From Sphaerochaeta associata (GTDB lineage: Bacteria > Spirochaetota > Spirochaetia > Sphaerochaetales > Sphaerochaetaceae), in the NCBI RefSeq assembly GCF_022869165.1, contig NZ_CP094929.1:3224001-3288000 (forward strand): a stretch of 64,000 nucleotides of DNA, in the 5' to 3' direction. Under the pieces are notes generated by a model, which saw only the letters and a program-made list of their open reading frames with translations, had not been told where the DNA came from and did not search any database. Shown here in pieces: positions 28,646-44,981 of this stretch. Each line of letters starts with the position of its first letter. Positions within the stretch are counted from its first letter, which is position 1. The translations under genes were made by a program, and so were the position numbers.

Positions 28646-30355
28646 TTAGAATGAAAAGGAAGTCCCCATGACAAGTTGCACATCCCATGCATGAGAGTTG
28701 AAAGCTTGTAAACTCTGAAGATATGAACCTCTCGCCAGCAAGGATACCTGCGAATACACCTGCCAGTCCGTACTGAAAGATATCAAATTCCCCACATCCA
28801 ATGCTCCAGCAAGGGTGGCGATGAACGATGTGTGTATCACATCTTCGCTGAACATCGTGGTTCCATACCCACTGGATCTATCGTCAAGTTCTGTAAACAT
28901 GTCAATATCACCCTTCAGCACTCCGGTCACAGCCAGCGACAAGCTACCCCTATCCGCAACCTTGTAGAGTGTTTGGGCATGGAGGACAAAGGCATCGCCG
29001 CCGTAGGGAGAACCGATGTAGTCCAGCTTGATGGCATTCCAAGCATTATTGTTTAATCCGGCATATCTGCGAGCCATCAAGAAATCCACGGTGTCGCGGC
29101 GGTACATGTGAGGCAGCGCCAACGAAGCTTCAATTGACGACTGCCACACCCCTTGGGCGAGGACTGTTGCATAGTCAGCCCCCAAAGACAACCCCCATGC
29201 CGGTAGTTCAGGATTATCACCTTCGTTGGGAGCAACCGCTTGATCGAGAGCAAACTGTCCATAGAACCGGAAGCCTGCAAATGGTACATAGGCAAGCTCA
29301 ATATGGGCGATTGCATTAAATTTTTCCCGCTGGTTCAGATTATGATACACAAATGCTGGATTGAGAAACCGTAAATCCAATGTATCATCCTGATACATGA
29401 CATTCTCACTGACAGCCACGCTGACCTTGCCCCAAGGACGGAACTCCAAGCGATGAGCCAACAACATCCTTAATTTGGAAGAGCCAACACAATTCATATC
29501 GAAAAAGACGGCCAACGCCTCATACTTGAAATACTCGGAGTAGGTTGTGAACCGAAGATACTCATAAAAATCAACATGGTCGTCGAGTACGAAGTTCCCG
29601 ATCTTTGAATTGCCCCAGGAGATTCGGTCCCTGCTGAAGGTGGCATTCCACTGCCGGCCTCCCAAGGAGATGACCGATCGCTTGGGGGTCTGGAAGTCGA
29701 TATGCGTGGAGGATGAGATCAGGTTGTTGGCATACCGCTTTTGGTATTGCACCAACGTGGTGTTTTCGTCTACGTAGTACAGCTTGGAATCCTTAGGGAT
29801 AAGGGCTCCGACACTCTCATCGGCACCGAGATAATCGAGAGTATCATCCTTCGTATGCAGACCGTACCCATATTGCAGATCGGAATAGGTGTAGAAGAAA
29901 TCCGAGACCGCCATGTCCAAGCGCAAACGCAGCAGCGGTTTTCTATCGACGTAGGAGTAATCCCACGCGCCATAGGAGGAGAAATCCGAGTTTAAATGAA
30001 CGTAGGATTCCACAGAAATGTCGGCGTATGCGGAAAGTGAGAAGCCATCGGAAAAGTTCCAACGAAGCGGAGCACCCACTCTCTCTTCGATGGATTCATA
30101 CAGTGAGAGAGCGGCTGCTTGCAGCCCCTCTTTCTGTACTCTGCCCAAGATTGCCTGTGCTTCCGCCTTTGTCCAGGGCCGGGAACCGGAGGGAGTACCC
30201 TCTCCTGCAAGCAGATAAAGCAAATCCATGTCTTCATATACCGAGCTTGCAAGAGGGATTACCTCCTGCGCCCCTACAGACGCAGGAAGAGGAATTACAA
30301 AGGCAATAAACACTGCAAGACAGAGAACAATTCGTTTCAAAAAGGCTGTTCTCAT
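28646..30355 (-). CDS. Outer-membrane beta-barrel-like protein (paralogue B)
   Basis: A 569-residue protein with an N-terminal signal peptide (KRIVLCLAVFIAFVIPLP, cleavage probably after an Ala near residue 27) and a long run of amphipathic strands ending in Phe-Ser-Phe, typical of outer-membrane barrels. It is a clear paralogue of the gene upstream: both have a YEDMDLLY/YEAIQILY segment, an RKPLL/QKPLL segment and a GG-x2-W...RDR-x2-WG motif, where this copy keeps Trp at the position of the neighbour's TGA. The ATG overlaps the upstream stop (ATGA). It probably belongs to the transcript of the ABC transporter above. Substrate unknown. Confidence 0.8.
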   Translation of the reverse strand: MRTAFLKRIVLCLAVFIAFVIPLPASVGAQEVIPLASSVYEDMDLLYLLAGEGTPSGSRPWTKAEAQAILGRVQKEGLQAAALSLYESIEERVGAPLRWNFSDGFSLSAYADISVESYVHLNSDFSSYGAWDYSYVDRKPLLRLRLDMAVSDFFYTYSDLQYGYGLHTKDDTLDYLGADESVGALIPKDSKLYYVDENTTLVQYQKRYANNLISSSTHIDFQTPKRSVISLGGRQWNATFSRDRISWGNSKIGNFVLDDHVDFYEYLRFTTYSEYFKYEALAVFFDMNCVGSSKLRMLLAHRLEFRPWGKVSVAVSENVMYQDDTLDLRFLNPAFVYHNLNQREKFNAIAHIELAYVPFAGFRFYGQFALDQAVAPNEGDNPELPAWGLSLGADYATVLAQGVWQSSIEASLALPHMYRRDTVDFLMARRYAGLNNNAWNAIKLDYIGSPYGGDAFVLHAQTLYKVADRGSLSLAVTGVLKGDIDMFTELDDRSSGYGTTMFSEDVIHTSFIATLAGALDVGNLISFSTDWQVYSQVSLLARGSYLQSLQAFNSHAWDVQLVMGTSFSF

Positions 30356-32154
30356 AGTGAATACGTTGCACCGAAGGTCAGCTGGATGTCTCCGGCACTG
30401 TCTCCACTCTTGTTCTTGTAGTTCTTGATGGTAATGTAGTCCACCTGCCCGAAGACCGAGAGACAATCGGACAGCTGATAGGAGCCGTTTATACCCGCAA
30501 CGAGGGTGTGTGAGACGGCGTTGCGTGATGCATACGTGCTGTCTTTATAGTTACCCGCACTATCTCCTCCATTATCGGTAGGGGTCGTTGCTATAGGAGA
30601 AGCATTTCCTCCAACACGATCCCAAATGGTGAACATATCAAACGTACCATGGGCCATATAGAACACGTTCGCTGATACATTCCATGCTCCAAATGCCTTC
30701 ATTCCTCCGTTGAAATTGAGCACTCTCGCATCATTGCCGTACGTATATCCCAAGAATTGGGGATTGTACAGTGTTCCCGATTTATTGGTGAACTCTCTGA
30801 TTACTCCCACATAATTCAGGCCATAATCATCATAATTTGGAGGATTAGAATCAGGTGCACTCTTTGTAGTGTATCGTAGATAGAGATACGGATCGGTTTG
30901 GGCGAATTCAAGCGATGCGTACCCTACTGCACTCTTAAGAGGAAGTACCCCCTTAAATCCTGCAAGGAAACCAAACGTTTGCGGATAATTGGTCTCAGTT
31001 GCGCTTGGAACAGCCTCTCCTGGCAGTGAGAACTCATCCACTGCAGCCTGGGCATAGATGTTCAATCCCTGAACAGGAGTATAATCGATTTCCAAGCCAA
31101 GAATGGAGTTTGCATTGCTTCTGATGTAGTAATCATGGAAGATCATGGCAGGATTGAGAATCCTCAGATCCAGCAGGTTTTCCTCACTTTGGTACATGAT
31201 GCTCTCGGTGAGGGTGAGGCCAACCTTGTCTGCAAACATCCGCCACTCCAAGCGATGGGACATGAACATGTAGATGCCACCAAGAAGAACTTCTTGCCCA
31301 TTTCCTTTAATAGGACCATCTCCAGGATTAAGCGTAATTGATCCATCGGGATTCGTAGTAACACCATCATAATAGCTAGCCGGATGCGGGAAGAACGAAG
31401 TCACAAAGGTATATTTGAACTTGTCCGAGAACGTCGTGATACGGGCCATGTTGTGGTACTTGAGCGTATCACTGAGCATGAGGTTGCCGGTTGTCCCTGC
31501 ACCCCAGTTGAGCCTGTCCCTACCAAGCTGGAAGGTTCAATGATCTCCTCCACCAGCTACAAACGTACGATACGGGAAATTCAAATCAATATCAGAAGTT
31601 GCTGCTGGAGGAACAACGATGACGTTTGAAGAAATCATGGTACTTCCAAACGGTGTGGCAAGTGTAGGAACGTTTCCAACACTAAATTCTGAATACCCAT
31701 AAAAGCTCTCAGCCGGCCAAGTTTCCAATCCGATGTTCAATAGAGGCTTCTGTTGGAGAGAGCCTCTCGTCCAGGTTTCCCTTCCCACGAAGTTGGTGGT
31801 ATCGGTGTGGTAATAAGTTTCCAGATTGGCATCGAAATTCCACGAAAGCCCGATTCCTTTTCCTTGAATCTTAGGCTCGATGTTCAATTGTTGAACAACA
31901 TAGTCATATGTTGAGGAAAGACTTCCTTTCAGTGTTTCAGGCTTGAGCTTCTCCAACATCAAGGTCAGCTCAGCCTGGCTGTACGGCCCGGTCGTTGAGG
32001 GAAGAGACAGCCCTTGAGAAACGTACAGTATTTGTATTGCTTCATAGATATCGCTATCCAGACTATAGATTTTCTGTTGATTCGAAACAGCAAAAATTGG
32101 AGACACCAGCAATGCAATGCATAGACCAACCAGCAGCGGACGGAGCTTTCGCAT
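30352..32154 (-). pseudogene. Outer-membrane protein (paralogue A) interrupted by an in-frame TGA
   Basis: Reading from ATG 32154 (AAAGG seven bases upstream) gives a signal peptide (RKLRPLLVGLCIALLVSPIFA) and 205 codons, then TGA at 31539-31537, after which the same frame continues for 394 codons to TGA at 30352. There is no frameshift. Flanking residues GGDH-[TGA]-TFQLGRDRLNWG align without gaps with GGRQWNATFSRDRISWG of the paralogue, so TGA stands exactly where Trp is conserved; TGG to TGA is one base. The rest is an intact barrel ending in Tyr-Ser-Leu. This could be a recent nonsense mutation, a sequencing error, or read-through. TGA is a normal stop in neighbouring genes. Confidence 0.85.
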
Positions 32155-32191
32155 GAGAGACCTTTTTTGATAATTTTCATCAGTATAAACC

Positions 32192-32215
32192 AAGGGATGC
32201 CGTTTGGCACCCCTT
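32192..32215 (-). terminator. Hairpin between the small anchored protein gene and the outer-membrane genes
   Basis: Minus-strand stem AAGGGGTGCC / GGCATCCCTT (10 pairs, one G-T), loop AAAC, only a short T-run after it. It may reduce rather than stop transcription into the outer-membrane genes. Confidence 0.5.
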
Positions 32216-32239
32216 AAAAAGAAACATGTACATGGATTG

Positions 32240-42992: not shown

Positions 42993-44981
42993 TCAAGTAT
43001 TTTTATCCTCTTCCTCATCCAATGTAATCTCTTCTTCCTCACCCTCAGGAATATATTCAACCCAGATCTTTTCTTTCTTAGTAGTGCGATTATCATCGGA
43101 AGGCTCATCCTCATCGGAAGGCTCATCTTCATCGGAAGGCTCATCTTCATCGGAAGGCTCATCTTCATCGGAAGGCTCATCTTCATCGGAAGGCTCATCT
43201 TCATCGGAAGGCTCATCTTCATCGGAAGGCTCATCTTCATCGGAAGGCTCATCTTCATCGGAAGGCTCATCTTCATCGGAAGGCTCATCCTCATCGGAAG
43301 GCTCATCCTCATCGGAAGGCTCATCCTCATCGGAAGGCTCATCTACATCGGAAGGCTCATCTACATCGGAAGGCTCATCCTCATCGGAAGGCTCATCTAC
43401 ATCGGAAGGCTCATCCTCATCGGAAGGCTCATCCTCATCGGAAGGCTCATCCTCATCGGAAGGCTCATCCTCATCGGAAGGCTCATCCTCATCGGAAGGC
43501 TCATCCTCATCGGAAGGCTCATCCTCATCGGAAGGCTCATCTTCATCGGAAGGTGCTGCTTCTTCGGATGATTCTGTTTCCTCGAGTTCGGATTGCCGGG
43601 CTTGGGCTTGCAACTCTTGTTGCTGGATGGTTTCAGTGAGTACCTGCAGTTCATTCTGCTTCTGGTTCAATTGCAGAGCAAGAGCAGCAATTGAAGCAGC
43701 CAGGGTTGCTGCAGTATTGCTTTCCTGCGAATTGGCAACAACGAGATGCTCTTTTTCGGCATTGAGACGATCTAGCTCCGTATGCAGGGAGGAAGCCTCA
43801 TCTCGAAGATGAGCAATCACCTGGGCAAGCTCTTCCTGCTTTCGGTCACCCCTTCTCAGACTCTCCTGCACGTCATCATTGCGTTTTACCAACAACTGGA
43901 TCTGACTGGCATATGTTTCCAGATTTACGTGTTCCTGCTCCTTGAGCTTCTCACTCATTTGTTGGGCCTGCACCACCCGTTCCTGCAGTTCCTGGATAAA
44001 ACTCGTGATGGTATGAATCATGGTCTGGAATGCTTGGTCAGTTTTGGCGATGGTATGGGTGAACAGATTCTCCATCTCGATATTGCATTGCTGGGAGAAG
44101 GCTTTCAATGATTGCAAGGATTGCATGTTTACCTCTTCCGAGAGATCCTGCAACGTCTGTTTCTGTTGGACCAGAGCCTTCTCGATCTCGGTCTTGACTG
44201 CTTCATAGTTTTTCTTTTGTTCGTTCAGGTCCTGGAAAGCCTGTTCTCGGGCAAGCTCAAGAGCATGTTCGTTGGAAGCGATAATCTGCTCGCTCTCATC
44301 CCCAAGCTGGCGGATCTTTGCTAGTTGGCCGGAAAGGACAGCCAACGAAGCAGCCTCATGACCCTTGAGCATCTCGGCATGTGAGGCAACTCGCCCCTGG
44401 TTGGCCCGTTCTACTTCCTGCACCTCACTCTCATACTCCTGAAGTTTTGCATACGAAGTGTCCAGAAGCTGTTTGACCCGTAGCTGCTGATTTGAAATAG
44501 CCTCGGTACCTTCTTCAACCATTGCCTGCAGAGCAGCCCTGAACGATTCAATTCTTGTATCGAATCCATCAATAATGGCTTGCACCGCTTCAATACGGTG
44601 CACTTCCTGCTTAACCTGCTCGATGCGTGCCTCAACCTGGGCTGTGGTGGCACCAAGCTTCGTCAATGAGTCACGATAGGTATTGAGTACACTCTGGAGC
44701 TTGGCGAGGTCCTCACTGCGAACCTCAAGCTCGGTCAGCTGGCTGTCAAGTCTCATCAACATCTGGTTGGAAGCTTCAATCTTATGATTGACCCGCTCCT
44801 CCACCTGTTGGGCTGTATCCTTGAACTGCGATCGGGCCGATTCCACTTCCCGGGAAAAGAGGTTTACCTTCTGCTTCATCAAATCCAGACGGCGATCACG
44901 TTTATCCTCCACCCGCAATAAGTAGATTATGACCAACGTAATCAGAAACAGAATTACAGGAAGTAATAGTTCAAGTCCCAT
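42993..44981 (-). CDS. Membrane-anchored coiled-coil protein (SpiroCoCo-like) with tandem-repeat tail
   Basis: A 662-residue protein. Residues ~4-22 form one membrane helix; residues ~30-460 are almost continuous coiled coil rich in Gln, Glu, Lys, Leu and Ser; residues ~477-630 are a strictly repetitive acidic array of PSDEDE hexamers (with PSDVDE variants); the last ~30 residues mix basic and acidic runs. The anchored coiled coil resembles the SpiroCoCo group of spirochaete proteins, with a presumed structural role. ATG 44981 follows GGAGG by six bases. It is last in ptsI-der-HAD-coiled-coil, 17 bp after the HAD gene. Confidence 0.8.
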   Translation of the reverse strand: MGLELLLPVILFLITLVIIYLLRVEDKRDRRLDLMKQKVNLFSREVESARSQFKDTAQQVEERVNHKIEASNQMLMRLDSQLTELEVRSEDLAKLQSVLNTYRDSLTKLGATTAQVEARIEQVKQEVHRIEAVQAIIDGFDTRIESFRAALQAMVEEGTEAISNQQLRVKQLLDTSYAKLQEYESEVQEVERANQGRVASHAEMLKGHEAASLAVLSGQLAKIRQLGDESEQIIASNEHALELAREQAFQDLNEQKKNYEAVKTEIEKALVQQKQTLQDLSEEVNMQSLQSLKAFSQQCNIEMENLFTHTIAKTDQAFQTMIHTITSFIQELQERVVQAQQMSEKLKEQEHVNLETYASQIQLLVKRNDDVQESLRRGDRKQEELAQVIAHLRDEASSLHTELDRLNAEKEHLVVANSQESNTAATLAASIAALALQLNQKQNELQVLTETIQQQELQAQARQSELEETESSEEAAPSDEDEPSDEDEPSDEDEPSDEDEPSDEDEPSDEDEPSDEDEPSDEDEPSDVDEPSDEDEPSDVDEPSDVDEPSDEDEPSDEDEPSDEDEPSDEDEPSDEDEPSDEDEPSDEDEPSDEDEPSDEDEPSDEDEPSDEDEPSDEDEPSDEDEPSDDNRTTKKEKIWVEYIPEGEEEEITLDEEEDKNT
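43097..43553 (-). repeat. Tandem repeat, 18-bp unit, 25 periods, inside a gene
   Basis: The 7-base anchor CGGAAGG (plus strand) recurs every 18 bp from 43097 to 43547 without a gap: 26 anchors, 25 periods. Each unit encodes Pro-Ser-Asp-Glu/Val-Asp-Glu. Three variants of one codon (GAG, GAA, GTA) occur in blocks, as expected from slippage-driven expansion. All periods are multiples of three, so copy-number change keeps the frame. Confidence 0.95.

Follow-up and report, generated by a model that had tools for sequence, protein, structure and literature searches.

A probable recent nonsense mutation in an accessory, predicted Wzi-like gene of Sphaerochaeta associata

A single in-frame TGA interrupts an otherwise intact gene of Sphaerochaeta associata at a tryptophan codon that is nearly invariant among its relatives. 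Judged from the sequence, the best explanation is that an accessory, predicted Wzi-like gene has recently acquired a single-base nonsense mutation, and to this we assign a probability of about 0.65. The window, the whole 64,000-nt stretch that we analyzed, spans positions 3,224,001–3,288,000 of a closed, 3.55 Mb genome; coordinates below are counted from its first base. The features discussed are:

30352..32154, minus strand: interrupted gene for a predicted Wzi-like outer-membrane beta-barrel protein, 600 codons plus terminal stop
31537..31539, minus strand: in-frame TGA, codon 206, opposite Trp (TGG) in all orthologues
31540..32154, minus strand: 5' part, which encodes the signal peptide, the N-terminal helices and the first strands; termination at the TGA would leave a 205-aa product
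30352..31536, minus strand: 3' part, an open and conserved frame past the TGA encoding most of the barrel, 394 aa
28646..30355, minus strand: intact adjacent paralogue, ATG at 30355-30353
32190..32217, minus strand: terminator-like hairpin (consensus match only) that separates the interrupted gene from the transporter-linked gene upstream of it

The interrupted frame and its orthologues

Translation of 30352-32154 on the minus strand gives 601 codons with one internal and one terminal stop. The internal stop is the TGA at 31539-31537, and the remainder of the 600-codon frame is intact, in agreement with the initial annotation. The residues flanking the stop, GGDH-stop-TFQLGRDRLNWG, align without gaps with GGRQ-W-NATFSRDRISWG of the adjacent paralogue, so that the TGA falls exactly on the paralogue's Trp, as had been proposed. 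We found orthologues in nine genomes of the genus (G001, G006, G011, G013, G016, G017, G018, G019, and G041), all full or nearly full length (that of G041 ends at a contig end), 62–74% identical to the window gene, and unbroken; G018 carries the nearest. A full-length match at this identity over a frame of 600 codons argues that the gene is real and not a chance reading frame.

The nine orthologues likewise align without gaps at the stop, and all have Trp encoded by TGG, which bears out the view that one base (TGG to TGA) explains the lesion. In an alignment of 25 family members from which the window gene was left out, the corresponding column (W206 in G018 numbering) is at least 90% Trp; one distant paralogue from the window genome, L022, has Tyr. 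Relative to the intact orthologues, the window gene therefore carries a disabling lesion. The named genome collection that we searched contained relatives only and no second isolate of the species, so a mutation, a consensus error, and a culture variant look alike at this position.

Interruption is not a general property of the region. Among 62 ORFs in the window matched to G018 over 57 kb, a few of which are probably antisense shadows, only one other contains a stop; it matches at 61%, overlaps other genes, and is probably no gene. The gene at 30352-32154 is thus the only convincingly interrupted gene of the window and should be annotated as a single interrupted gene rather than as two. An independent second start at the ATG at 31479 would open a 375-aa frame that lacks a signal peptide, and we rejected it as a source of functional protein.

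A predicted Wzi-like barrel

The two fragments of the window gene have no Pfam match at E ≤ 1, and a search of NCBIfam with the gene's own pieces was equally without a match; the family is therefore named through relatives and fold. Twenty of the 25 family members match the capsule-related Pfam family PF14052 (Caps_assemb_Wzi) at E ≤ 0.1, the best at E 2.1e-15. A profile search of PDB sequences returned chance matches only. For the intact orthologue of G018, AlphaFold2 gives a model (mean pLDDT 82.5, pTM 0.85) that combines a large barrel with three short helices and a hydrophobic helix at the N terminus, and the top Foldseek match of this model in the PDB is Escherichia coli Wzi (2ynk; E 2.4e-16, TM 0.70 by target length). 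The protein is thus predicted to be a signal-peptide-bearing, Wzi-like outer-membrane beta barrel, which supports the original description of the gene product as an outer-membrane protein. It would share with Wzi (PF14052, 2ynk) the signal peptide, the N-terminal helices, and the single barrel; however, the G018 orthologue is only 15% identical to 2ynk and scores 18.9 bits against PF14052, under the cut-off of 30.1.

In the G018 model, Trp206 opens the barrel strand 206–213, and a product stopping at codon 205 is without most of the barrel. Translation of the window gene would end at the UGA (RF2 is present) and yield a 205-residue fragment with the signal peptide, the helical N-terminal part, and the first barrel strands only. 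Such a fragment should fail to fold in the outer membrane and then be degraded.

Age of the lesion and reading of the UGA

The rest of the gene is undecayed. Where the other orthologues are all invariant, the window gene differs at 11 of 272 columns, stop included, and its sister G018 at 15 of 277. Counting codons with a single change, assigned to branches by parsimony, we obtained nonsynonymous:synonymous ratios of 9:37 on the branch of the window gene and 11:42 on the G018 branch over the whole gene, and of 4:22 and 6:29, respectively, past the stop alone; the ratio expected without selection is 2.4–3.2 to 1. We estimate that selection was absent from ~3–5% of the branch, with a 95% upper bound of 10–16%, figures that are approximate since synonymous sites are near saturation. 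Relaxation of selection on the branch of the window gene is not measurable, and the sequence thus indicates either a young stop or continued production of the protein, the same two options that had been drawn from the lack of decay. An undecayed 3' part is equally expected of a gene that is still translated.

We searched the genome for means of decoding the UGA as an amino acid. Matches to tRNA-Sec were below the cut-off and fell on ordinary tRNAs, and nothing scored over the cut-off for SelB; the candidate selenoprotein was rejected on these grounds. RF2 (prfB) is present, which disposes of RF2 loss. Typing of all tRNA genes found revealed one tRNA-Trp gene, with anticodon CCA; six other species, the nearest (G018) among them, share its sequence at 100% identity. 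It carries A9, G24, and a C27:G43 pair and none of the changes A9C, G24A, C27A, and G43U named for suppressor tRNA-Trp (PMC13092985), so a suppressor tRNA was rejected as well. Folding of the RNA at and after the stop is no better than that of shuffled sequence (z -0.05), leaving no candidate for a structured readthrough element; the base following the UGA is A. TGA is the commonest terminal stop, ending 28 of the 62 matched ORFs, and the same ORFs contain 157 TGG codons for Trp. With no tRNA-Trp(UCA) or suppressor, RF2 kept, and UGA in use as a stop, the genome does not look like one that has reassigned UGA to Trp, and TGG in all orthologues together with the lack of 3' structure speaks against programmed readthrough. 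Recoding of the UGA is not supported by these searches. Selenocysteine or a reassigned UGA would account for the frame being otherwise open, but in view of the missing machinery, the use of UGA as a stop, and the presence of Trp, not Cys, in relatives, we regard its probability as negligible.

A further reading is ordinary leakage. UGA is known to leak: E. coli and Salmonella decode it as Trp very rarely, one Bacillus subtilis reporter gave ~6% readthrough, and bacterial in-frame stops have been described that are conserved and have dN/dS below 1 in the sequence after them (PMC7918605). Misreading of the UGA by ordinary tRNA-Trp could thus supply a little full-length protein, perhaps enough to keep the gene under selection, and the frame past the UGA does stay conserved. 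Like young bacterial pseudogenes and the published cases of possible readthrough, the window gene is conserved apart from one in-frame stop; in PMC7918605, however, the stop had to occur at the same place in at least two genomes, whereas here it occurs in one. A site maintained for readthrough should recur in other species, tRNA-Trp lacks suppressor changes, no structure follows the codon, and the youth of a mutation fully explains the conservation. We consider a real but leaky stop distinctly unlikely. Of the low-level readthrough suggested in the initial annotation, leakage as such is plausible from general knowledge, but adaptation of the genome to it is not seen in tRNA-Trp, RNA structure, tRNA-Sec/SelB, or RF2. 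The bolder idea that low-level reading of UGA as Trp rations a surface barrel, and perhaps a coupled paralogue too, as a species-specific gain of translational control, is a long shot.

An error in the consensus or a base call, with the gene intact in the strain, would leave just what is seen: a single substitution, no other lesion, and no measurable relaxation. The genome is closed, however, and one doubtful further stop among 62 ORFs over 57 kb indicates no general excess of errors; we rate this explanation as unlikely, though to be taken seriously. An OFF state of a phase-variable or cassette-switched surface antigen, also raised at the outset, would suit a surface protein with paralogues whose locus one species has lost. 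Yet a base substitution is an unusual switching lesion, and the codon is free of repeats and slippage tracts. The window genome contains several further paralogues, but they are at most 42% identical, so that a donor cassette for gene conversion was not seen; this reading is very improbable indeed. The genome sequence bears no sign of recoding or switching. Recent inactivation is the best fit among the four readings originally offered.

The downstream paralogue and loss of the locus

The start of the downstream paralogue and the end of the interrupted gene share four bases, in which ATG and terminal stop overlap (ATGA, 30352-30355), and the paralogue itself lacks an obvious ribosome-binding site. 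In G001, G011, G013, G017, and G019, an AAGGGAG- or AAGGAAG-like site lies after the stop and before a GTG. The overlap and the lack of a clear site suggest that translation of the paralogue may be coupled to that of the interrupted gene. The TGA may then be polar, lowering translation of the paralogue through lost coupling. Elsewhere in the window, an 18-base array of 25.6 copies (43093-43553, minus strand) encodes an acidic hexapeptide tail, (DEDEPS)n, of a coiled-coil-like protein; in the orthologue from G018, another hexapeptide array, (ETEELP)n, occupies this place.

The locus varies across the genus. In G003, the upstream transporter genes stand in the same order, and the gene is a frameshifted remnant that ends after ~280 codons. 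The remnant (L032:4143-5291) consists of the 5' part of the orthologue, which runs directly into the 3' end of the downstream paralogue, suggesting a deletion across the tandem pair. It keeps the Trp codon intact, so the loss in G003 is independent of the TGA and argues that the gene is dispensable. No close copy exists in G002, a closed genome whose best matches are 43% and 34% identical, and in G018 the gene is present and a close downstream paralogue was not found. The accessory status of the gene in the genus and the presence of several paralogues in the genome would explain why its inactivation is tolerated in S. associata.

Sphaerochaeta are free-living or commensal anaerobic spirochaetes. 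By itself, the TGA carries little weight, as one more young nonsense mutation. Across the genomes compared, the family is accessory and has undergone repeated loss: the predicted Wzi-like surface locus has been lost more than once in Sphaerochaeta.
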